Shown here: piece by piece, positions 975-62,683 of the stretch | Layout of the letters: every line of letters starts with the position of its first letter | Numbering within the stretch: the stretch's first letter is position 1 | Origin: Gemella haemolysans | Lineage (GTDB): Bacteria > Bacillota > Bacilli > Staphylococcales > Gemellaceae | DNA: 64,000 nucleotides | Direction: 5' to 3' | NCBI RefSeq assembly: GCF_012273215.1 | Contig: NZ_CP050965.1 | Location: 62,001 to 126,000, forward strand | Notes under the pieces: generated by a model | What the model saw: only the letters and a program-made list of their open reading frames with translations | Told to the model about the DNA's origin: nothing | Databases searched by the model: none | Program-made: the position numbers and the translations under genes

Positions 975-1150
975 GGTTGGGAGTGACTCAAAAATCGTGA
1001 TTTCGTAGAAATCGATTTTGTCGAGTCACCCCCGCAAAGTTTATTAGATATCTAAAAAGCTCTTATAAAGCGCATTTAGATATCAATAAACCACTGCGTC
1101 TATGAATTCTCATATAAATTATGTTAATTTTTAGAACTTTTGGAACAACC
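975..1150 (+). repeat. MITE-like structured repeat, copy 1
   Basis: About 176 bp with no coding capacity. It is closely similar to the reverse complement of 52931-53112. It holds two large hairpins: GGGAGTGACTC (979-989) pairs with GAGTCACCCCC near 1023-1033, and TTTATTAGATATC pairs with GATATCAATAAA (about 1040-1091). A conserved tail starting CCACTGCGTCTATGA follows. The outer ends are weak inverted repeats (AGGTTG...CAACCT). No transposase is inside, so any mobilisation would be in trans. It sits between a good promoter and the MFS gene. Confidence 0.72.
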
Positions 1151-1170
1151 TCAAATTATACAGCTAGGAG

Positions 1171-29470: not shown

Positions 29471-32400
29471 ATGTTATTTAATCGACAAGGGCTACAACAA
29501 AAAAATTGGCGAATGGTCAAAAAAGGAAAACACATACTTTTTGGTTGTTCGTTATTCTTTGTTGTTGGGGGAGTAAGTGTTAATGGCCCGCAAGTGACAT
29601 ATGCAAGTGAGATTAATAGCTCAGAATTATCTGTTAAGCAAGATAATATAAGTAACAAAAATACGGCAGTTAGCACTTCGGAATTAAACGATGAGAAACA
29701 AACGGAAAGTTTAAACAACACAACATTAGAAAATAATACTTTAAGCGAAAGCAAAGAGAAGATTATCCTGAAAAAGGAAGCTAATAAGGAAGAACTAAAG
29801 AATTTAGTTGATAAGATTAAGAAAGCAGACATCAGTGGAAAAACTGAAAAATCTGTAAAAGAACTTAATCTTGTTTTGTCACGTGCAGAAAAAGCGCTAG
29901 ATAATAAAGAAATAACTCAAGAAGAAATTGATAAAGAAGTAAAACTTTTAAAGGTAGTATTTGAGAATTTAGAAGATAAATCTAGGGGAGACAAAAAATC
30001 AGAAATTAAGAAAGATGATGATAAATCAGATTCTGAGAAAGATACTAAAGAAAAACAACAAGTTAATAATACAGAAGATGTTGCTAGAAGACATAATGAA
30101 AAAATTACTAAAGCAACTAATATCGTGAAAGAAATTAATAGTTTAGCTAGTGAAATAAACTATGAATTTAGTGATTCAGAAAAAGAACTAGTTAACACTA
30201 TTGAGAAACTTCCAACTACTGATAATAATAGTGAAGAAAGTATTCAAAAACTATTAAATGAAGCAATTTATCTTCGAAATAGAGTAGCTAATAGAGTTAC
30301 TCGTGCTAATTCGGGAAGACGTGACCCACGAAATGGAAAAGTCATTGACAAAAATGGAGAGAGTGGGTTTAGAGCGATTTGGTTAGCATCAATTGCTAAT
30401 AAATATGAAGGTAGTAATAACTTAGTAAATGAAAATAGAACAAATTTAACTTTTTATAATTCGGATACTTTATTCTCAGTGATGACAGCGTATGGTAAAA
30501 GAGGAAATGGGGAACCGTTAGTAAGATATCAGAATGGCCCTAAACGAGGAGAGGAAAATCCTACTCCGTATTATGTAAAAAGAGTAGGAGTTATAAGTGG
30601 TCTTAATCAAGTTAAAGGTTTAAAACTACGTGTAGCTTATAAAGATTTCCGAACAGGAAATAAAGAAGAAGTAGATATTGCTGCTAACTATTGGAATGTA
30701 AATAATCCTGAAGTACAAATGGCTCTTGTTGGAACTATAGGTGATGGTGGAAATGTAACACCAGGTACTTATCATATTACAATTGGAGCAAATGGGACAT
30801 ATAAACAAAATACAATTACCTATACTCTAACTATCAAACCTCAGAGTGAGCGTAATACTGTTAATAATTTAACTCCTACTTACGTAGATGATATTAGACA
30901 TTTAACAGAAAATGAAAAAAATGCTTTGATTGAAAAATTTAAAGCTGAGCATCCGAATGTCGTCAATCGTGCGAATCATGTTGACTTCGACCATGCTGAA
31001 ATTTCAGCTGATGGTACAACGATGACAATTCACTTTAAAGATGGATTTAATCCTAAAACAATTCAAACAAATGCGACGAATGATGTAGAAGCAAAACACC
31101 AAAGTATAACAGCTTATTTTGGTGATTCTAAAGAATTGTATACAAATCCAAGGCAATTAGTACGTTCTAAAACTGGAAATGAAGTACCGTCGACAGCTCA
31201 AGTAACTTATAAAACACCTTTTAACTTACAACAAACGGGAACAAGAAACGTTGTAGTAACGACAACTTATGAAAATGGAATAACAAAAGATGTAACAACT
31301 CCTTATACAGTTTTAGATTTTATAGGAAAACAAGATAAGAAAATTAACCAGAATCAATCTGGTCAATTGGGAGACGCAAGAAATTATATTACTGTTTCGG
31401 ATAATTCAGCACTTCCAAGTGAATTAACTGTTCGTTGGAAAGGTGGTTCATCGACTGTAGATACCTCTGCTGCGGGTGTACAACATAAAGAAATTGAAAT
31501 TCTTCGTGGAAATCATTTGATGAAAACTGTAACTATACCGGTAGAAATAGTGGATAATATTAATCCAACTATTACAGCACCAGATTCAGTATTACTAACA
31601 AGGTTGGAAGGGTTACCAAGTGAGATAAATATTTCTGCACAGGATAATAATAAAGGAGTAGGACTTAAAGATGGAACTGCTGTTACTGTAGAAAATCTTC
31701 CTGCACCTTTAACGTATAATGCAGCAAAATCTAAAATTGAAATAAATGGTGTTATTCCGAATAACTTCCAACTTGGTAAATCAAGTATTCAAGTGACTGT
31801 TAAGGCAGTTGATAAAAAAGGAAATACTGCGACTAAAAATATTACTTTTAATATCCAATCTCAAACACAAAAATATACAGCAGTTGCTAATCCTCAAAAA
31901 CAAGAAGTGAGTTATGGTGAGACTCCTGATGCAGGAACAAGTATTCAAAGAAATGGATTGCCAACAGGCACAAGATATGGATGGGCAACAGCACCTAATA
32001 CGACAACAGGTCCTGGAGATAAAGCAGGAGTTGTAACAGTAACTTACCCAGATGGTTCAACAGATACTGTAAGTGTGACCGTAAAAGTGCGTAAGTTAAG
32101 TGATGAGCATGAACCAACTGGGAAGACAATTACTGTCAATCAAAATGAACCTGTAACAAATGATAGACTGAAAGCAGCGGTAACAATCAGTAGCAATGGT
32201 AACAGTAAAGTGAGATCGGTTACTCCAGTCGGAAATATCAGTACGACAAATGCAGGGCCACAAACCATAAAAGCGACAGTTACCTATTTGGATAATACTA
32301 CTGATCCGGTTGATATTCCACTAGAAGTAAAAGACATTACAGCTCCAACGATTCAAACACCAACTGACAGACAAAATTGGGATTTAATCGCGTTAGACAG

Positions 32401-35400
32401 AACATTGCCACCAATAAAAGTAATATCTGCTGATAACGCCGGTGGAACAGGTATTAAATCAACAACAGTAACTGGGTTACCAGATTTCTTGGTATATGAT
32501 AATGCAACTAAGACAATTAAGTTTAAAAATGGTGTTCAAGAGGTAACGAAACTACCTGCTGGACAAGATAGTAAGATATATAATGTTAATATCCAAGTAA
32601 CAGATAATTCGAATAATTCTAGTCAAAGAACAGTAGCGATTACTGTTAAATCGATGACTACTAAATACAGTGCAACAGCCAATCCACAAAAACAAACTGT
32701 AAGTTATGGTGAAACACCAAACGCAGGAACAAGTATAAATAAAAATGAATTACCAGAAGGAACATCGTATACTTGGAGAACGATGCCTAACACAACTACT
32801 GGTCCTGGACAAAAGGCTGGAGTAGTAATTGTAACATATCCAGATGGTTCTACAGATTTGGTTGATGTAACTGTGGATGTACGAAAACTAAGTGAAGAAC
32901 ATGAACCAACAGCTACTAAAATAGTTAAAAATCAAAATGGCTTAGTGTCGAATGCAGATTTGAAAGCAGCGGTAACAATCAGTAACAATGGTGCTAGTAA
33001 GGTGAAATCTGTAACTCCTGTCGGCACAATCAACACTGTTGAAGCAGGGGAAAAAGAAATTTCTGCAATGGTAACCTATCTTGATGATACAACGGATACG
33101 GTGAAAATTCCGTTAGAAGTAAAAGATGTGACACCACCAACGATTCAAACACCAGTAAATGGTCAAAATGTTGATTTAATTGCATTAGATAAAGCTTTTT
33201 CACCAATAAAAGTAACGTCTAATGACAACGCTGGAGGAAGTGGTGTTCAGTCAACAACGGTAACAGACTTACCAGATTTCTTAACATATGATGATGCGAC
33301 TAAAACCATCAAGTTTAAAGAAGGTACTAAGGAAGTTCCTAAATTACCAGTTGGTACAGATTCTCAAACGTATACAACTACAATTCGTGTGACAGATAAT
33401 GCAAATAATAGTAGTACTTCACATTTAACTTTTATTGTGAAATCAATGACTACAAAATATGATGCAACTTCAAACACTCAAAAACAAACAGTAAGTTATG
33501 GTGAAACTCCAGATGCAGGCACAAGCGTGAATAAAACAGGACTACCAGAAGGAACAAGTTACGCTTGGAAAACAACACCAGTCACAACAGATGGACCTGG
33601 TGAAAAAGATGGAGTAGTAGAAGTAACGTATAAAGACGGTTCAAAAGATATGGTAAATGTAAAAGTTACTGTAAAAGAATTAAGTTCAGAATACGAAGTA
33701 ACTGGAAATGAAATCGTAGTAAATCAAAACGATCGTGTATCAAATGATGATTTAAAAGCTAAAGTAACAGCGACATCAAAAGTAGGGAATGTTGATGGAA
33801 CGGATAAAATTTCAAAAGTAGAACCAAAAGCGGAGATTAGCACGGCCAACTATGGAGATCAAAATATAACTGCGACAGTAACATTTAAAGATGGAACAAC
33901 TAAGGAAGTAACCATTCCATTGAAAGTAAAAGACGTAACGAAGCCAACTATCCAAACACCAGAAGATAATACAAACTGGGAAATGACAGCATTAGACAAA
34001 GCTTTACCAAATATGGAAGTAAGAGCTGAAGATAATGCAAATGGTAGTGGAATAAAAAACGTCACTGTAATAGGATTGCCTGATTATCTAGAATATGATA
34101 GTGCAACTTACACTATTAAATTCAAATCAGGAAAAGACACAGTTGAAAAACTACCAGAAAATATACCAAGTCAAGAATTTACTTTAAATATTCGAGCAGA
34201 AGATAATGCGGGAAATGTTAGAGAAAGAACGGCTAAAATTACAGTATTTTCAATGAGTGCGAAAAAGGAACCTACACCAATTCCACAAAATACAAGTTAT
34301 GGAAAAGTACCAGATCCTAATGCAAGTGTAGATAAAGAAGGACTACCGGAAGGTACAAATGTAACATGGAAAACACCACCTGTAGTTAATACACCAGGTA
34401 CAACAACTGGTGAAGTGGAAATCACTTATCCAGATGGATCAAAAGACGTAGTTACAGTAAATGTAACAGTGAGAAAAGTAAGTGAAGATTTTACAGCGAC
34501 TGGAACACAAATTGAAGTAAATCAAAATGAAGCAGTAACATCTGATATGTTAAAAGCAGCAGTAACTACGGTAAATGCGCAAGGTGAAAATGGAAATGCC
34601 AAAATTGCAACAGTTGAAGCCAAAACACTAATTAACACTGAGGCTTATGGAGAACAAACAATACAAGCAAAAGTAACATATATTGATGGTTCCGAACAAG
34701 AAGTAACAATTCCTCTTGAAGTAAGAGACGTAACGCCACCGACAATTCAAACACCAACTAATGGACAGAATTGGAATTTAATCGCAGTAGAAGGACAAGA
34801 TCCAAATATAGCCGTAACAAGTGAAGACAACGCAGGAGGAAGTGGAGTTAAATCAACGACAGTAACAGGGTTACCAGACTTCTTAGAGTATAATGAATCA
34901 ACTAAAAAGATTCAGTTCAAAACAGGAGTAACTCAAGTACCAAGTTTACCAGTAGGAACTGACGTACGATCTCACAATGTAACTATTACAGTAGTAGATA
35001 ATGCAGGGAATGAAACAACAACAAATGTTACAATCACTGTGAAATCAATGACTACGAAATACGAAGCAACTCCAAACTCGGAAAAACAAACAGTAAGTTA
35101 CGGAGTGACTCCAGATGTAGCAACAAGTGTGAATACTTCAGGGTTACCAGAAGGAACAAGATATGCTTGGACAATAACACCAGTAACAACAACACCTGGT
35201 GAGAAAGACGGAGTAGTAGAAGTAACGTATAAAGACGGTTCAAAAGATACAGTAAATGTAAAAGTTACAGTAAATGAACTAAGTTCAGAATACGAAGTAA
35301 CTGGAGCACCAATTGAAGTAAATCAAAACACTCCAGTAACAAATGATGAATTGAAAGCCAAAGTGACGGCGACATCAAAAGTAGAGAATGTTGATGGGGC

Positions 35401-38400
35401 AGATAAGATTTCAAAAGTAGAACCAAAAGTACAAGTAAGTACAGCTGCATACGGTGAAACAAATATTGAAGCAACAGTAACGTTCAAAGATGGAACAACG
35501 AAAGAAGTAACAATTCCGTTAAAAGTCAAAGACGTGACTCCACCAACTATTACAGCTCCAGAAGAAAATAAAAACTGGGAAATGACAGCATTAGATAAAA
35601 CTTTACCAAATATGGAAGTAAGGGCAGAAGATAATGCGAACGGAAGTGGAATAAAAACGGTAAGTGTAGAAGGACTTCCTGATTACTTAGAATATGATAG
35701 TACAACTAACTCAATTAAGTTTAAATTAGGGAAACAAGAAGTAGAAAAACTACCAGATAATACGCCAAGTAAAGAATTTAATTTGAATATTCGTGTAGAA
35801 GATAATGCAGGAAATGTTAATACAAGAACTGCGAAAATTACAGTATCTTCAATGAGTGCGAAAACTAATCCTCAACCAAAAGATCAAATGGTAAACTACG
35901 GACAAGTACCAAATCCAGAAGATAGTGTAAATAAACAAGGGCTACCAGATGGAACAACGGTGACATGGAAAACTCCACCAGTAGATAATACGCCAGGTTC
36001 AACAACGGGAGAAGTAGAAATCACATATCCAGATGGCTCAAAAGATGTGGTTACAGTAAATGTAACTGTAAGAAAAGTAAGCGAAGAATATACTGCGACT
36101 GGAACACAAATCGAAGTGAATCAAAATGCAGAAGTAACATCTGATATGTTAAAAGGAGTAGTTAATGCGATTAATGCACAAGATGACAATGGTAATGCGA
36201 AAATCGCAAAAGTGGAATCAAAAACACCAATTAATACAGCGTTGTATGGAAATCAAACAATTCAAGCAAAAGTAACATATATTGATGGCTCAGAACAAGA
36301 TGTTACGATTCCGTTAAAAGTCAAAGATGTAACTCCACCAACAATTCAAACACCAACTAATGGACAGAATTGGAATTTAATCGCAGTAGAAGGAGGAAAT
36401 CCAAATATTGCTGTAACGAGTGAGGATAACGCTGGAGGAAGTGGAATTAAATCTATAACTGTAATGGGGTTACCAAATTTCTTAGAATACAATGAAGCAA
36501 CTAAGATGATTCAGTTTAAAACAGGAGTAACATCAGTACCAAAATTATCAGAGGGAACAGATGTAGAACCGCATAATGTAACGATAACGGTAGCAGATAA
36601 CGCGGGTAACGAAACAACAACAAATGTTACAATTACTGTGAAATCGATGACTACGAAATACAATGCAACTCCTAATGAACAAAAACAAACGGTAAGTTAT
36701 GGTGAAGAATTAGATGCGGGAGCGAGTATTAATAAATCTGGTTTACCTGCAGGAACAACTTATACATGGGAAACAAAACCAAGTACGACAGAAGAACCAG
36801 GGGAGAAAGCAGGAGTAGTAACTGTTACATATCCAGATGGCTCAAAAGATGCAGTTAATGTGACTGTAAATGTGAGAAAACTAAGTGATGAATATGAACC
36901 AACAGGTACTAAAATAGTTAAAAATCAAAATGACTTAGTATCAAATGAAGAATTAAAAGCAACGGTGACAATTAGTAATAATGGTGCTAGTAAGGTGAAA
37001 TCTGTAACTCCTGTTGGAACTATTAATACGATAAACTCAGGAGATCAAACAATTAATGCGACTGTAACGTATCTTGATGGTACAACAGATACTGTAACAA
37101 TAACACTTGAAGTAAAAGACGTGACTCCACCAACTATTCAAGCCCCAACAGAAAATACAAACTGGGAAATGACTGCATTAGATAAAACTTTACCAAATAT
37201 GGAAGTAAGTGCAGCAGATAATGCGAACGGAAGTGGAGTAAAAACAGTAAGTGTAGAAGGTCTTCCTGATTACTTAGAATATGATAGTACAACTAACTCT
37301 ATTAGATTTAAAGCAGGAAAACAAGAAGTAGAAAAACTACCAGAAAATACACCAAGTAAAGAATTTAATTTGAACATTCGCGTGGAAGATAAAGCAGGGA
37401 ATGTCAGTGAAAGAACTGCGAAAATTACAGTATCTTCGATGAGTGAGAAAAAGAATCCGACGCCAATTCCACAAAATACAAGTTATGGACAAGTACCTTC
37501 CCCTAATGCAAGTGTAGACAAAACAGGATTACCGGAAGGAACAAATGTAACATGGAAAACACCACCAGTAGTTACAGCACCAGGAACTAGTACAGGAGTG
37601 ATTGAAGTAACTTATCCAGATGGAAGCAAAGATACAGTTGAAGTGACGGTAAATATAAGTAAGTTAAGTGATGAGTACAATATAGCTGGTACTGAAATTG
37701 TAGTGAACCAAAATACTCCAGTAACGAATGATGACCTAAAAGCCAAGGTAACGGCGATATCAAAAGAAGGAAATATTAATGGAACTGATAAAATCTCAAA
37801 AGTAGAACCAAAAGCAGAGATTAGCACAGCTAACTATGGAAATCAAAATATTACTGCGACAGTAACATTCAAAGATGGAACAACTAAAGAAGTAACAATT
37901 CCATTAAAAGTTAAGGATATCACAGCACCAACAATTCAAACACCAACTAATGGACAGAATTGGGACTTAATCGCAGTAGAAGGAGAAAATCCAAATATTG
38001 CTGTAACGAGTCAGGATAACGCTGGAGGAAGTGGAGTTAAGTCAACAACGATAACAGGATTACCAGAATTCCTAGAATACAATGAAGCAACTAAAACAAT
38101 TCAGTTTAAAGCAGGAACAACATCAGTACCAAACTTACCAGAAGGAACAGATGTAGAGCCACATAATGTAACGATAACGGTAGTAGATAACGCAGGGAAC
38201 GAAACAACAATAAATGTTACAATCACCGTGAAGTCAATGACTACAAAATATGAAGCAACTTCGAATCCAGAAAAAAAAATAGTAAGTTATGGAGAAGAAG
38301 TAGATGCGGGAGCAAGTATTAACAAATCTGGTTTACCTGTAGGAACAACTTATACATGGGAAACAAAACCAAGTACGACACAAGGTCCTGGGGATAAAGT

Positions 38401-41400
38401 GGGAGTAGTGACTGTTACATATCCTGATGGTAGTAAAGATACTGTTAATGTTACGGTAAATGTTCGTGCACTTAATGATGAGTATGATGTAGCTGGAAAT
38501 GAAATCGTAGTAAACCAAAATACTCCTGTAACAAATGATGAATTAAAAGCCAAAGTGACGACGACATCAAAAGTAGGGAATATTGATGGAACTGATAAGA
38601 TTTCAAAAGTAGAACCAAAAGCGGAAATTAGCACGGTTAACTATGGAAATCAAAATATTACTGCGACAGTAACATTCAAAGATGGAACAACGAAAGAAGT
38701 AACAATTCCATTAAAAGTCAAGGATGTAATACCACCAACTATTCAAGCTCCAACAGAAAATACGAACTGGGAAATGACAGCATTAGATAAAACTTTACCA
38801 AATATGGAAGTAAGGGTAGAAGATAATGCGAATGGAAGTGGAGTAAAAACAGTAAGTGTAGAAGGACTCCCTAATTACTTAGAATATGATAATGCAACTA
38901 ACTTAATTAAATTTAAGACTGGAAAACAAGAAGTAGAAAAACTATCAGAGAATACTCCAAGTAAAGAATTTAATTTGAATATTCGTGTTGAAGATAATGC
39001 AGGAAATGTTAATACAAGAACTGCGAAAATTACAGTATCTTCAATAAGTGCGAAGACTAATCCTCAACCAAATGATCAAACGGTAAACTACGGACAAACA
39101 CCAAATCCAGAAGATAGTATAAATAAACAAGGATTACCAGATGGAACAACGGTGATATGGAAAACACCGCCAGTAGTTAATACACCAGGTTCAACAACCG
39201 GAGAAGTGGAAATCACTTATCCAGATGGATCAAAAGATGTAGTTACAGTAAATGTAACTGTAAGAAAAGTAAGCGAAGAATATACTGCGACTGGAACACA
39301 AATCGAAGTAAATCAAAATGAAGAAGTAACATCTGATATGTTAAAAGGAGCAGTTAATGCGACTAATGGTAAAGGTGAGAATGGTAATGCGAAAATCTCA
39401 AAAGTAGAATCAACAGCACCAATTAGCACAACAACATATGGAGACCAAACAATTCAAGCAAAGGTAATATATATTGATGGTTCAGAACAAGAAGTAACGA
39501 TTCCGTTAAAAGTCAAAGATATAACACCACCAACTATTACAGCTCCAATAGAAAATAAAAACTGGGAAATAACTGCATTAGATAAAACTTTACCTGCGAT
39601 GAAGATTAAAGCAGAAGACAATGCAAATGGAAGTGGAATTTCTATGATTGAAGTAAGAAATCTACCTGAATTCTTAACTTTTGATGAATCTACTGGAACA
39701 ATTGTTTTCAAGGAAGGTGTACAAGAAGTACCGAAAATTAAATCCGACAATACAATGCATGGTGTAACGATAATAGCAAGAGATAGAGCTGGAAATTCGA
39801 CATCAATTTTAGTAAATATTACAGTTTGGTCTATGCGAGGAAAATATGATCCACAACCAAAAGCACAAACTGTGGACAACGGAACAGTACCAAACGCAGA
39901 AGATAGTGTAGATAAAACAGGGTTACCAGAAGGTACAACTGTAACATGGAAGACAACTCCAGATGTAAGTACACCTGGAAGTCATCCAACAATAGCGTTA
40001 GTAACGTACCCAGATGGGACAGTAGACGAAGTCACAGTACCAATCACAGTTAAGAAACAAAGTGAAACATTCACACCAACTGCGAAAGAGCCAAACCAAA
40101 CCGCAAAACACGGAAGTGACCCAAGCGCAGAAGGAAGTATCAACACTGAGAACCTACCTAAAGGAACAACGTACACATGGGTAGAAAAACCAGATACAAA
40201 TACAACGCCAGGAAGCAAACAAGGAAAAGTATTAATCACATACCCAGATAATAGTACGGAAGAAGTTACAGTAACAGTAGAAGTAACACCACAAAAAGAC
40301 GACTACAATCCACAACCAAAACCACAAACAGTGGATAACGGTACAGTACCAAACGCAGAAGATAGTGTAGACAAAACAGGCTTACCAAGTGGAACTACAA
40401 TCACATGGAAGACAAATCCAGAAGTAACTACACCAGGAGAATATCCAACAATAGCGTTAGTAACATACCCAGATGGAACAGTAGACGAAGTTGAAGTACC
40501 AATTACAGTTAAAAAACAAAGTGACACATTCACACCAACTGCGAAAGAGCCAAATCCAACGGCAAAACATGGAAGTGACCCAAGCGCAGAAGGAAGTATC
40601 AATACAGACGGCTTACCAAGTGGCACAACGTACACATGGGTAGAAAAACCAGATACAAATACAACACCAGGAAGCAAACCAGGAAAAGTATTGATCACAT
40701 ACCCAGACAATAGTACGGAAGAAGTGCCTGTAACAGTAGAAGTAACACCACAGAAAGATGACTACAATCCACAACCAAAACCACAAACTATTACAAATGG
40801 AGATGTTCCAAATGCAAAAGATAGTATAGGAAATGTACAAGAACTACCAGATGGAACAAGAATAGAGTGGAAAGATGGAACAGTTCCTAATACTGATACT
40901 CCAGGGAATATTTCTGCAAAAATAACTATCACATATCCAGATGGAACGGTAGATGAAGTCGATGTGACAATTATAGCTAATAAACAAACTGCAAAAGGAG
41001 ATCCAGAAGTTCAACCAACGTTACCAGAATTCAGTGGAGGAGTAAACGGGGATCCAGAAGTTCAACCAACGTTACCAGAATTCAGTGGAGGAGTAAACGG
41101 GGATCCAGAAGTTCAACCAGCTTTACCAGAATTCAATGGAGGGGTGAACGGAGATCCAGAAGTTCAACCAATGTTACCAGAATTCAGTGGAGGAGTAAAC
41201 GGGGATCCAGAAGTTCAACCAGCTTTACCAGAATTCAATGGAGGGGTGAACGGAGATCCAGAAGTCCAACCAACGTTACCAGAATTCAACGGAGGAGTAA
41301 ACGGAGATCCAGAAGTTCAACCAATGTTACCAGAATTCAGTGGAGGAGTAAACGGAGACCCAGAAATTCAACCAGAGGTACAAAAAAATAAACTTATTAT

Positions 41401-41779
41401 TACTAGATGGATCGATGAGAATGGCAATGAATTGAAACCTGCGGATGCTGAAGCTTCAACCAAACTTGGTGAAGAAAATAAGGCATTTGATCATGGTGAA
41501 ATAGAAGGTTATGAATTTATAAGAACAGAAGTTAGTAAATCTGGGGATGTTGTTACACATATCTTCAGAAAACGTGCTAACAATGTGATTAATAAAGTAC
41601 GAGTAACACAAGCTAATTCTCGAAATATTGATCTAGTGAAATCTAGTGGATTTAGTAAAACATATAAACGTTTAGCTAATACAGGTGAAACCGCAAATAA
41701 TAGTGAATTAGCAGGACTAGGTTTAGCAATAGTAGGTCTATTTGCAGCAATAAAACGTCGTAAAAACGAAGAAGATTAA
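29471..41779 (+). CDS. Giant Rib-repeat surface adhesin, LANTG-anchored (4102 aa)
   Basis: A single 12.3 kb frame. Signal region with NWRMVKKGKHILFGCSLFFVVGG then ATYAS-like processing site (about residue 45). A helical, FIVAR-like stretch lies at 100-170. A folded N-terminal region (about 290-700) with no family I recognise precedes ten ~265-aa repeat units (about 800-3454). Each unit has a Rib-like domain (SYGETPDAG ... TYPDGS), a second beta domain (VNQN ... IPLEVKD) and an Ig/HYR-like domain (PPTIQTP ... DNAGN). Five tandem Rib domains (about 3455-3842), seven 17-aa repeats, a MucBP-like domain (about 3973-4037) and LANTG (4068-4072) with membrane helix and basic tail follow. Likely an adhesin; partner unknown. 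Confidence 0.92.
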   Translation: MLFNRQGLQQKNWRMVKKGKHILFGCSLFFVVGGVSVNGPQVTYASEINSSELSVKQDNISNKNTAVSTSELNDEKQTESLNNTTLENNTLSESKEKIILKKEANKEELKNLVDKIKKADISGKTEKSVKELNLVLSRAEKALDNKEITQEEIDKEVKLLKVVFENLEDKSRGDKKSEIKKDDDKSDSEKDTKEKQQVNNTEDVARRHNEKITKATNIVKEINSLASEINYEFSDSEKELVNTIEKLPTTDNNSEESIQKLLNEAIYLRNRVANRVTRANSGRRDPRNGKVIDKNGESGFRAIWLASIANKYEGSNNLVNENRTNLTFYNSDTLFSVMTAYGKRGNGEPLVRYQNGPKRGEENPTPYYVKRVGVISGLNQVKGLKLRVAYKDFRTGNKEEVDIAANYWNVNNPEVQMALVGTIGDGGNVTPGTYHITIGANGTYKQNTITYTLTIKPQSERNTVNNLTPTYVDDIRHLTENEKNALIEKFKAEHPNVVNRANHVDFDHAEISADGTTMTIHFKDGFNPKTIQTNATNDVEAKHQSITAYFGDSKELYTNPRQLVRSKTGNEVPSTAQVTYKTPFNLQQTGTRNVVVTTTYENGITKDVTTPYTVLDFIGKQDKKINQNQSGQLGDARNYITVSDNSALPSELTVRWKGGSSTVDTSAAGVQHKEIEILRGNHLMKTVTIPVEIVDNINPTITAPDSVLLTRLEGLPSEINISAQDNNKGVGLKDGTAVTVENLPAPLTYNAAKSKIEINGVIPNNFQLGKSSIQVTVKAVDKKGNTATKNITFNIQSQTQKYTAVANPQKQEVSYGETPDAGTSIQRNGLPTGTRYGWATAPNTTTGPGDKAGVVTVTYPDGSTDTVSVTVKVRKLSDEHEPTGKTITVNQNEPVTNDRLKAAVTISSNGNSKVRSVTPVGNISTTNAGPQTIKATVTYLDNTTDPVDIPLEVKDITAPTIQTPTDRQNWDLIALDRTLPPIKVISADNAGGTGIKSTTVTGLPDFLVYDNATKTIKFKNGVQEVTKLPAGQDSKIYNVNIQVTDNSNNSSQRTVAITVKSMTTKYSATANPQKQTVSYGETPNAGTSINKNELPEGTSYTWRTMPNTTTGPGQKAGVVIVTYPDGSTDLVDVTVDVRKLSEEHEPTATKIVKNQNGLVSNADLKAAVTISNNGASKVKSVTPVGTINTVEAGEKEISAMVTYLDDTTDTVKIPLEVKDVTPPTIQTPVNGQNVDLIALDKAFSPIKVTSNDNAGGSGVQSTTVTDLPDFLTYDDATKTIKFKEGTKEVPKLPVGTDSQTYTTTIRVTDNANNSSTSHLTFIVKSMTTKYDATSNTQKQTVSYGETPDAGTSVNKTGLPEGTSYAWKTTPVTTDGPGEKDGVVEVTYKDGSKDMVNVKVTVKELSSEYEVTGNEIVVNQNDRVSNDDLKAKVTATSKVGNVDGTDKISKVEPKAEISTANYGDQNITATVTFKDGTTKEVTIPLKVKDVTKPTIQTPEDNTNWEMTALDKALPNMEVRAEDNANGSGIKNVTVIGLPDYLEYDSATYTIKFKSGKDTVEKLPENIPSQEFTLNIRAEDNAGNVRERTAKITVFSMSAKKEPTPIPQNTSYGKVPDPNASVDKEGLPEGTNVTWKTPPVVNTPGTTTGEVEITYPDGSKDVVTVNVTVRKVSEDFTATGTQIEVNQNEAVTSDMLKAAVTTVNAQGENGNAKIATVEAKTLINTEAYGEQTIQAKVTYIDGSEQEVTIPLEVRDVTPPTIQTPTNGQNWNLIAVEGQDPNIAVTSEDNAGGSGVKSTTVTGLPDFLEYNESTKKIQFKTGVTQVPSLPVGTDVRSHNVTITVVDNAGNETTTNVTITVKSMTTKYEATPNSEKQTVSYGVTPDVATSVNTSGLPEGTRYAWTITPVTTTPGEKDGVVEVTYKDGSKDTVNVKVTVNELSSEYEVTGAPIEVNQNTPVTNDELKAKVTATSKVENVDGADKISKVEPKVQVSTAAYGETNIEATVTFKDGTTKEVTIPLKVKDVTPPTITAPEENKNWEMTALDKTLPNMEVRAEDNANGSGIKTVSVEGLPDYLEYDSTTNSIKFKLGKQEVEKLPDNTPSKEFNLNIRVEDNAGNVNTRTAKITVSSMSAKTNPQPKDQMVNYGQVPNPEDSVNKQGLPDGTTVTWKTPPVDNTPGSTTGEVEITYPDGSKDVVTVNVTVRKVSEEYTATGTQIEVNQNAEVTSDMLKGVVNAINAQDDNGNAKIAKVESKTPINTALYGNQTIQAKVTYIDGSEQDVTIPLKVKDVTPPTIQTPTNGQNWNLIAVEGGNPNIAVTSEDNAGGSGIKSITVMGLPNFLEYNEATKMIQFKTGVTSVPKLSEGTDVEPHNVTITVADNAGNETTTNVTITVKSMTTKYNATPNEQKQTVSYGEELDAGASINKSGLPAGTTYTWETKPSTTEEPGEKAGVVTVTYPDGSKDAVNVTVNVRKLSDEYEPTGTKIVKNQNDLVSNEELKATVTISNNGASKVKSVTPVGTINTINSGDQTINATVTYLDGTTDTVTITLEVKDVTPPTIQAPTENTNWEMTALDKTLPNMEVSAADNANGSGVKTVSVEGLPDYLEYDSTTNSIRFKAGKQEVEKLPENTPSKEFNLNIRVEDKAGNVSERTAKITVSSMSEKKNPTPIPQNTSYGQVPSPNASVDKTGLPEGTNVTWKTPPVVTAPGTSTGVIEVTYPDGSKDTVEVTVNISKLSDEYNIAGTEIVVNQNTPVTNDDLKAKVTAISKEGNINGTDKISKVEPKAEISTANYGNQNITATVTFKDGTTKEVTIPLKVKDITAPTIQTPTNGQNWDLIAVEGENPNIAVTSQDNAGGSGVKSTTITGLPEFLEYNEATKTIQFKAGTTSVPNLPEGTDVEPHNVTITVVDNAGNETTINVTITVKSMTTKYEATSNPEKKIVSYGEEVDAGASINKSGLPVGTTYTWETKPSTTQGPGDKVGVVTVTYPDGSKDTVNVTVNVRALNDEYDVAGNEIVVNQNTPVTNDELKAKVTTTSKVGNIDGTDKISKVEPKAEISTVNYGNQNITATVTFKDGTTKEVTIPLKVKDVIPPTIQAPTENTNWEMTALDKTLPNMEVRVEDNANGSGVKTVSVEGLPNYLEYDNATNLIKFKTGKQEVEKLSENTPSKEFNLNIRVEDNAGNVNTRTAKITVSSISAKTNPQPNDQTVNYGQTPNPEDSINKQGLPDGTTVIWKTPPVVNTPGSTTGEVEITYPDGSKDVVTVNVTVRKVSEEYTATGTQIEVNQNEEVTSDMLKGAVNATNGKGENGNAKISKVESTAPISTTTYGDQTIQAKVIYIDGSEQEVTIPLKVKDITPPTITAPIENKNWEITALDKTLPAMKIKAEDNANGSGISMIEVRNLPEFLTFDESTGTIVFKEGVQEVPKIKSDNTMHGVTIIARDRAGNSTSILVNITVWSMRGKYDPQPKAQTVDNGTVPNAEDSVDKTGLPEGTTVTWKTTPDVSTPGSHPTIALVTYPDGTVDEVTVPITVKKQSETFTPTAKEPNQTAKHGSDPSAEGSINTENLPKGTTYTWVEKPDTNTTPGSKQGKVLITYPDNSTEEVTVTVEVTPQKDDYNPQPKPQTVDNGTVPNAEDSVDKTGLPSGTTITWKTNPEVTTPGEYPTIALVTYPDGTVDEVEVPITVKKQSDTFTPTAKEPNPTAKHGSDPSAEGSINTDGLPSGTTYTWVEKPDTNTTPGSKPGKVLITYPDNSTEEVPVTVEVTPQKDDYNPQPKPQTITNGDVPNAKDSIGNVQELPDGTRIEWKDGTVPNTDTPGNISAKITITYPDGTVDEVDVTIIANKQTAKGDPEVQPTLPEFSGGVNGDPEVQPTLPEFSGGVNGDPEVQPALPEFNGGVNGDPEVQPMLPEFSGGVNGDPEVQPALPEFNGGVNGDPEVQPTLPEFNGGVNGDPEVQPMLPEFSGGVNGDPEIQPEVQKNKLIITRWIDENGNELKPADAEASTKLGEENKAFDHGEIEGYEFIRTEVSKSGDVVTHIFRKRANNVINKVRVTQANSRNIDLVKSSGFSKTYKRLANTGETANNSELAGLGLAIVGLFAAIKRRKNEED
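31870..39831 (+). repeat. Ten ~795 bp repeats, alternating types from unit 3
   Basis: Rib starts fall near 31870, 32653, 33447, 34250, 35045, 35850, 36646, 37438, 38233 and 39039. Units beginning SMTTKY-ATxN (type A) alternate with units beginning SMSAK/SMSEK-NP/EPTP (type B) at 34250, 35850, 37438 and 39039, so the higher-order period is about 1.6 kb. The Ig-like domains alternate too: NWNLIAVEG... versus NWEMTALDKTLPNMEV.... Confidence 0.85.
40997..41353 (+). repeat. Seven 51 bp tandem repeats (GDPEVQPxLPEFxGGVN)
   Basis: Seven full copies and a partial eighth of a 17-residue unit, nearly identical in DNA. They form a Pro-rich stalk before the MucBP-like domain and wall anchor. Copy number is likely variable. 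Confidence 0.92.
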
Positions 41780-52308: not shown

Positions 52309-52923
52309 ATGGCGAAATTTTATGCAGTAAAAAAAGGTAAAAAAACAGGTATATTCTCAACTTGGGATGAATGTAAAGAGCAGGTGACTGGATTTAAAGG
52401 TGCGGTTTATAAAAGTTTTAAAACTTTGTCAGAAGCTGAAGCTTTCCTAGAAAGAAATGAAGAAAAAATTGAAAATATTGAAGAAGTTGATGGTGTATAT
52501 GCTTATATCGATGGTAGTTTCGACAGAGTTAGTGGTATATATGGTTCAGGTGTGGTCATAGTAGATGGCGATAAAAAATATGAATATAAACATGCTGGGA
52601 ATCGTGAAGATTATGCACAATTACATAATGTTGCTGGAGAATTGGAAGCTGCAAAATTCGTTATGTGGTATGCTGTTGATAAAAAAATTAAAGAGATTAC
52701 ATTGTTTTACGATTATCAAGGGATAGAAGCGTGGGCAGTTGGAGATTGGAAAGCAAATCTTCCTTATACTCAAGATTATGTAAAATTTTATAGTAAGGTG
52801 AAGATGGCAGTAAAGGTTAATTTTGTGAAGGTAAAAGCTCATACCGGAATTGAGTTGAATGAAGTTGTGGATAAGCTTGCGAAAGAGGCTATTGAACAAT
52901 TTAAAAAAGAAAATACTAAGTAA
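52309..52923 (+). CDS. rnhA: Ribonuclease H with N-terminal viroplasmin-like domain
   Basis: 204 residues. Residues 1-45 form the RNA/DNA-hybrid-binding caulimovirus-viroplasmin domain (KFYAVKKGKKTGIFSTWDECKEQV). The RNase H1 domain (about 63-204) shows the acidic residues in AYIDGSFD, GELEAAKF, LFYDYQGI and NEVVDKLAKEA. It removes RNA from RNA:DNA hybrids such as R-loops. RBS AAGGAGAG. The stop lies 8 bases before the MITE-like copy, whose hairpin may end the transcript. Confidence 0.93.
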   Translation: MAKFYAVKKGKKTGIFSTWDECKEQVTGFKGAVYKSFKTLSEAEAFLERNEEKIENIEEVDGVYAYIDGSFDRVSGIYGSGVVIVDGDKKYEYKHAGNREDYAQLHNVAGELEAAKFVMWYAVDKKIKEITLFYDYQGIEAWAVGDWKANLPYTQDYVKFYSKVKMAVKVNFVKVKAHTGIELNEVVDKLAKEAIEQFKKENTK

Positions 52924-52930
52924 GATAAAG

Positions 52931-53112
52931 CAAGGGGCAGACCCAAAAGTCCTAAAATTTAACAAAGTTCATATGAGAACTCATAGACGCAGTGGTTTAT
53001 TGATATCTAAATTCACTTTATAAAAGCTTTTTAGATATCTAATAAACTGTGCGGGGGTGACTCGACAAAATCTTGTTTCTTAAGAAATCACGATTTTTGA
53101 GTCACTCCCTTG
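52931..53112 (-). repeat. MITE-like structured repeat, copy 2 (inverse orientation)
   Basis: 182 bp, the reverse complement of the copy at 975-1150, sharing both hairpins and the CTATGA-GCAGTGG arm. Its ends, read inward, are CAAGGGGCAGACCCAAAAGT (52931) and CAAGGGAGTGACTCAAAAAT (53112), i.e. imperfect terminal inverted repeats of about 20 bp. The right hairpin is followed by a T-tract (53111-53118) so it can also terminate rnhA. Confidence 0.78.
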
Positions 53113-53140
53113 TTTTTTATTAAACCTTAAAAGATAAATG

Positions 53141-61862: not shown

Positions 61863-62683
61863 TGAAATTATTAATAAATGAATTTATAAAAGATTATAAA
61901 AAGAAAACTACATGGTTATATTTCTTACTGTCATTTGGAATTATTTTATTAAATAGTTATATTGCTAAAAGACAGTTTGAAGATGGAGTAGATGCGGTAA
62001 AAATACTTAGTGGAATAACAGTTGTTGCGGGTTCAGTAGCTATGGTATTCTCACTAATTATGTTAGCAAACAACTTATCTCAAGAATACTCAAAAGGAAC
62101 TATTAAGTTCTTATATACAAGACCAAAATCACGTTCTGCAATACTTACTGCTAAAATAGTATTAGCATTTATCAACTATATTATTTTCCTAGTAGTAGGA
62201 ACAGTATTTGATTTTGTGACTAAAAACTATGTATTCTTCAAAAATAAAATAGGGTTAAATCATTTAAATGATACTATAGAAGAAGGATACTTCGGAAGAA
62301 CAGTTGTTAAACAAATAATTATAACAAATTTAGCTGATTTAGCAGTGTATATCTTCTTTGTAGCCATGGTAGTGTTAGTTTGTGTAGTATTCAAAACTCA
62401 AATTCTATCATTAGTATTAGTTATGCTATCACTTTTAGGAACTGGATTAATTCAATCATTAACAATATTTGCAGTTTCAAAATTCTCATGGGCAAAATAT
62501 CACATGTTTGATGTGCCTTTATTTAGCTCATATTATTCAAGTGAAGCAGGTCGTCACACTGTAAAAGAATTGTTTAAGTTTGACAATGCAAATGCGTTAA
62601 TTATTATGTTAGTAGCATATAGTTTTGTATTCTTTGTAATTTCATATATTGTAAATGCAAGACGCGATATCACAATAGATTAG
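61862..62683 (+). CDS. ABC-2 transporter permease
   Basis: 273 residues, six membrane helices (about 18, 50, 105, 160, 185, 250). Family pattern EYSKGTIKFLYTRPKSRSAILTAKI after helix 2. It forms the channel for the ATPase encoded upstream; RBS AGGGGAG lies inside the ATPase end. Substrate unknown; relatives export peptide antibiotics. Confidence 0.85.
   Translation: MKLLINEFIKDYKKKTTWLYFLLSFGIILLNSYIAKRQFEDGVDAVKILSGITVVAGSVAMVFSLIMLANNLSQEYSKGTIKFLYTRPKSRSAILTAKIVLAFINYIIFLVVGTVFDFVTKNYVFFKNKIGLNHLNDTIEEGYFGRTVVKQIIITNLADLAVYIFFVAMVVLVCVVFKTQILSLVLVMLSLLGTGLIQSLTIFAVSKFSWAKYHMFDVPLFSSYYSSEAGRHTVKELFKFDNANALIIMLVAYSFVFFVISYIVNARRDITID

Follow-up and report, generated by a model that had tools for sequence, protein, structure and literature searches.

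The stretch of DNA analysed here, referred to as the window, comprises 64,000 nucleotides (positions 62001–126000) of the Gemella haemolysans genome, which forms one contig of 2.08 Mb. Near its start, an MFS transporter gene (1171–2445; the reading frame from 1171 matches PF07690, MFS_1) lies downstream of a promoter-like site, TTAACA-16-TATAAT with a TG extension (915–942, + strand), and between the two is located copy 1 of a non-coding element of ~175 bp (979–1152, +). Copy 2 of the same element (52934–53109, −) begins 10 bp past the stop codon of an RNase H gene (52309–52923). A first-pass annotation had reported two copies in opposite orientations sharing ~175 bp; alignment bears this out, with 92% complementarity across 130 bp, and refines the limits to those given above, copy 2 being delimited in an alignment of 14 loci. 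The span originally assigned to copy 2, 52931–53112, holds the element but also an outer CAA (52931–52933) and an outer TTG (53110–53112), which comparison with the relative G007 assigns to the feet of a replaced hairpin. The placement of copy 1 in the MFS leader is reasonable, with the promoter upstream, its TATAAT kept in relatives that lack the element, and the MFS frame following. Copy 1 is common to this genome and G007, and is absent from G003 and G008. The window further contains an ISL3-family transposase gene (PF01610; 2498–3838) directly 3′ of the MFS gene, and a gene for a 4102-aa surface protein (29471–41779) with about ten repeats of ~795 bp and, towards the 3′ end, a series of 51-bp repeats.

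Anatomy, dispersal and structural conservation of the element

The element is composed of hairpin 1, hairpin 2 and a tail, and is bounded by imperfect terminal inverted repeats (GGGAGTGACTCAAAA / GGGGCTGACCCAAAA). In copy 1, folding and structure comparison assign hairpin 1 to 979–1033 (+) and hairpin 2 to 1034–1097 (+), while the alignment of copies assigns the tail, including the right terminal repeat, to 1098–1152 (+). Hairpin 1 is strong, and its 5′ arm doubles as the left terminal repeat GGGAGTGACTCAAAA; hairpin 2 is longer and A+T-rich, opening with GCA and closing with TGC. The tail of ~55 bases closes with the right terminal repeat (consensus TTTTGGGTCAGCCCC), which is degenerate in copy 1 (GGAACAACCTC); this end is variable in general, which leaves several bases of uncertainty in some right break points. 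Both window copies are far better folded than their shuffles (z −7.7 and −7.4), in agreement with the two conserved hairpins noted at first pass. The lack of coding content also holds, as neither copy contains a credible ORF, and scanning the window against Rfam gave no matching family.

About 60 dispersed copies of the element exist in the genome, and chance is excluded. A query with copy 1 returned at least 40 scored matches, copy 1 itself counted. The left-end motif, allowing two mismatches or fewer, occurs 62 times in this genome and 83, 68 and 54 times in its close relatives G003, G007 and G008, respectively, and not once as the reversed-pattern control; it is scarcer in G002, G004, G006 and two sister-genus genomes. 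Additionally, terminal-repeat matches in this genome number 82, against one in the control. Being short, non-coding, dispersed in many copies and furnished with terminal inverted repeats, the element resembles a MITE, and the original description of it as a MITE-like structured element is upheld by these features together with the empty sites described below.

A strict pattern of the element's architecture, applied to named genomes, found matches in Gemella haemolysans, in five species of Staphylococcus and in several of Streptococcus; in 399 genomes of the class, matches were confined to three genera. In 18 sequences from the three genera, gathered with patterns and not with a covariance model, 17 of 33 base pairs have changes in both partners and pairing holds in 94% of cells, thus providing the compensatory changes proposed as a check at first pass; the covariation score is 0.38, compared with 0.02–0.11 for slid structures. 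The structure is maintained across the three genera while the sequence drifts. Plasmids and phages gave no match to the Gemella version; staphylococcal plasmids and streptococcal phages carry versions of their own, and one viral contig bearing the element derives from a Streptococcus equinus phage.

Several variant forms were encountered. Solitary hairpin-1 forms of ~55 bp, devoid of hairpin 2 and tail, are found at L173 (2516), L220, L222, L224 and L226, the last with complementary flanks AGAG/CTCT, as though hairpin 1 were able to move, or to persist, by itself. A larger copy in G004 (L051) has its parts spread over ~480 bp, apparently with another hairpin-bearing sequence nested inside.

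Six copies in this genome are interrupted by an IS3-family element of ~1.49 kb (rve and HTH_21 domains) at one exact base of the hairpin 1 loop. It seems to insert at GAAA^TCG and to duplicate 3 bp (AAA). The interrupted copies lie near 1641.1 (L215), 1320.6 (L216), 1139.8 (L218), 300.3 (L221), 1618.8 (L225) and 1899.7 kb (L227), three in each orientation. Either the IS3-family element inserts site-specifically into the repeat, or the two have partly moved together, since one rare base change in hairpin 2 is common to L216 and L218.

Orthologous sites and the fate of the replaced hairpins

The state of 28 sites, i.e., 26 fetched copies and the two window copies, was compared with the orthologous positions in G007, using one genome per species, of which G003 and G007 are drafts. 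Eight sites are occupied in G007, 19 are empty and one is ambiguous, so that the empty sites sought at first pass were indeed found. In place of the element, the 19 empty sites contain 11–42 unrelated bp, which at about half of them form a clear hairpin unrelated in sequence to the element. The hairpins of 10 of the 19 segments exceed the 95th percentile of same-loci controls (p 5e-8) in a custom scoring scheme, and folding yields z < −2 in 9/19 segments compared with 9/111 controls; the hairpin statistic consists of these two tests, which agree. At about nine empty sites the hairpin is weak or absent, through decay or other causes. The target duplications that the first-pass annotation had suggested looking for are not seen at the empty sites; the hairpin has been deleted instead.

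The site of copy 2 illustrates this exchange. In G007, where the RNase H gene is 98% identical, the site reads GCAAGTAGATTTTAAAAGACCTTAAATTCTACTTGTTTTT, a hairpin followed by Ts, while in this genome it reads GCAA, the element and TTGTTTTTT. The T run (53113–53118, +), probably derived from the old terminator, now adjoins hairpin 1 of copy 2. Stem remnants often border the element, and the complementarity between its two flanks exceeds a permutation null (p 0.0035), as it should if they are what is left of a cut stem. Downstream of RNase H in G008 (L065) and G003 (L066), a remnant fuses the left end of the element to one end of the IS3-family element, which suggests repeated hits on this terminator.

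The same comparison could be read in the opposite direction, with G007 having lost its elements and its hairpins being scars or newly arisen terminators. The polarity is known at few sites only, which leaves some room for such a loss; however, the G007 hairpins are unrelated in sequence, both to one another and to the element, and at L003, L012, L018 and L023 the hairpin of G007 recurs in the outgroup G008. Since the hairpin is shared with the outgroup, the element is the derived state at these four sites, where loss is contradicted, and loss as a general account is scarcely credible. At five further sites (L002, L006, L007, L013 and L021), element sequence is present in G008 and lacking in G007, which points to some interspecies exchange or loss having occurred as well. 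These sites, where G008 agrees with this genome and G007 has other sequence, also suggest an exchange of alleles, and the element might accordingly have spread chiefly through the recombination of intergenic segments between related strains, with no transposition. However, same-locus exchange cannot seed dozens of unrelated loci in both orientations, and the break points fall at the feet of hairpins; we consider this route very unlikely to be the principal one.

By ORF-based gene calls, a gene 3′ end lies within 40 bp of 21 of 30 copies (p 8e-9), where the window's intergenic positions predict 21%. The right end of the element meets the gene first in 17 copies and the left end in 6 (p 0.035); thus, hairpin 1 is usually distal to the gene. 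In the 17 copies with a distal hairpin 1, the ten bases beyond it are 59% T, against 33% in the window, a purely descriptive contrast, T being more frequent in intergenic DNA than in the window as a whole. Taken together, the complementary flanks, the distal hairpin 1 and the T-rich flank suggest that the target retains its T run and that hairpin 1 would then supply the stem of the terminator, so that termination would be restored after insertion. A simple terminator scan called none at copy 2, its rules (loop of 3–8, no interruption) excluding hairpin 1.

Copy 1 is atypical for the family in that it occupies a 5′ leader, whereas most copies are found at gene 3′ ends; an effect of its hairpins on the MFS transcript, as suggested at first pass, would therefore be out of keeping with the family at large. 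Its location between a promoter and the MFS gene, along with the strong conserved structure and its compensatory changes, would suit a cis-acting regulatory RNA, such as an attenuator or riboswitch-like leader for the downstream genes. Against such a role, most copies follow the stop codons of genes that have nothing in common, relatives lack the element at many sites, an Rfam match is absent, and the orthologous MFS genes of G003 and G008 have no element. The regulatory leader is rejected as a general account because of the gene-3′-end location and the element-free MFS orthologues, and we regard it as highly improbable.

Proposed mechanism and candidate mobiliser

Based on these observations, we propose, with a probability of roughly 0.8, that the element is a non-autonomous miniature transposon that replaces palindromic stem-loops, mostly the hairpins of intrinsic terminators just past stop codons, with hairpin 1 as the probable new terminator. 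This reading is directly supported by the dispersal of the element, the replacement of hairpins at about half of the informative sites, the location at gene ends and the conserved structure. Upon insertion, all of the target hairpin but a few base pairs at the foot would be lost, the target would not be duplicated, and the T run outside the hairpin would stay in place. Hairpin 1, at the left end of the element, would most often adjoin the retained T run and probably act as a terminator; if so, insertions would be nearly harmless, and the genome could hold about 60 copies. The failure to find a transposase with these terminal repeats, the lack of DUF772 hits in copy-rich close relatives, the roughly nine sites with a weak or absent hairpin, the presence of copy 1 in a 5′ leader and the five sites occupied in G008 and not in G007 count against this explanation.

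A transposase is presumed to act in trans, and the IS1182/IS1272 type appears the most likely, since stem-loop replacement is documented for that type. No autonomous partner with the element's terminal repeats was found in this genome. Long pairs of terminal repeats were considered as an autonomous element and rejected, as the ones examined are the copies interrupted by the IS3-family element. Elements with a DUF772 transposase do occur in this genome; their ends, AGGCTGTTGACAAA, are unlike those of the repeat, and they were rejected as its parent. Two of them (L058 and L060, at about 1880–1886 kb) are situated 4 kb apart and have the same flanking palindromes, e.g., AAGTGTCTGAAAATATATTTTCAGACACTT.

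A narrower claim identifies the mobiliser as a transposase of the IS1182 family (DUF772) that Gemella has since lost or seldom carries; we hold it tentatively, at a little under even odds. The insertion mode is that of IS1272 and TnSha1, and DUF772 elements exist in this genome as well. Furthermore, G084, a Staphylococcaceae genome in which the element occurs, carries a DUF772 element (L114) whose ends, GAGTCTGGGACATAAA, differ by one base from the right end of the copies there (GAGCCTGGGACATAAA) and whose flanks, AAACAA/TTGTTT, are complementary. However, DUF772 elements with the repeat's ends are wanting here, the local ones carrying AGGCTGTTGACAAA, and searches of the copy-rich relatives G003, G007 and G008 gave no DUF772 match. 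The likeness in G084 is possibly coincidental, as GGGACATAAATGTCCC-type palindromes are common in staphylococci, and as a pointer to the mobiliser it is only suggestive.

If hairpin 1 does restore termination, a transposon could reach a high copy number in a compact genome by landing on terminators and substituting its own, and some terminators in these genera would be mobile elements. More speculatively, a single two-hairpin "terminator-swapping" superfamily may exist in Gemella, Staphylococcus and Streptococcus and spread by putting its own conserved hairpin in place of native intrinsic terminators. Mobile terminators would then continually supplant natural ones in these genera while selection preserves termination, and the element would also be the specific landing site of an IS3-family element; we regard this as possible rather than probable.

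Comparison with known systems

IS1397-type members of the IS3 family insert in REP palindromes (PMC1525189). The interrupted Gemella copies are similar in that an IS3-family element occupies specific positions of a dispersed palindromic repeat; however, the repeat is a transposon-like two-hairpin unit and not a REP.

IS1272 (PMC5678879) and TnSha1 (PMC4923244), both of the IS1182 family, insert into hairpins with no fixed sequence, many of them terminators, just downstream of genes and in both orientations, and the hairpin is partly or wholly deleted with no target duplication. Similarly, the Gemella element replaces palindromic targets with no duplication, clearly so at about half of the 19 empty sites. 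However, IS1272 and TnSha1 are 1.9–3 kb in length and encode a transposase, whereas the Gemella element, at ~175 bp, codes for nothing, differs in its terminal repeats and brings along two conserved hairpins. It appears to work like IS1272 but is not assigned to the IS1182 family here, as it has no coding capacity and its ends differ from those of the DUF772 elements in this genome.

A likeness in build is offered by the EFAR repeats of Enterococcus faecalis, reportedly described by Venditti et al. in 2007 as ~170 bp in length with two independent stem-loops. Their targets are said to be stem-loops of unrelated sequence that are largely deleted, while some of the stem persists at the ends. EFAR would thus share with the Gemella element its size, the two adjacent stem-loops, the intergenic location and the deleted stem-loop targets with stem remnants; the host genus differs, and the two are likened by build and behaviour. 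EFAR is probably the Efa-1 family, which has 65 intergenic copies of 163 bp with two adjacent stem-loops (PMC2267715). No such repeat occurs in 50 kb of the E. faecalis plasmid pTEF1, and the strict pattern gave no Enterococcus match among the 399 class genomes, which says little on kinship with EFAR. The statement at first pass that no named repeat family has this sequence stands in so far as Rfam gave no match; it falls short in that anatomy and insertion mode fit the EFAR/IS1272 kind, with which we would place the element by its behaviour. The Sta-1, Sta-3 and Sta-4 families of Staphylococcus aureus are also dispersed, structured intergenic repeats, 99–136 bp in length (PMC2267715), and the staphylococcal relatives of the element might belong to one of them, the likeness being one of description only.

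The principle of stem-loop replacement is known from staphylococci, and its signature is seen here with an element that codes for nothing, at numerous empty sites of which several are polarised by an outgroup; the element is a well-documented new case and not a new principle. We know of no earlier description of a stem-loop-replacing element in the genus Gemella.
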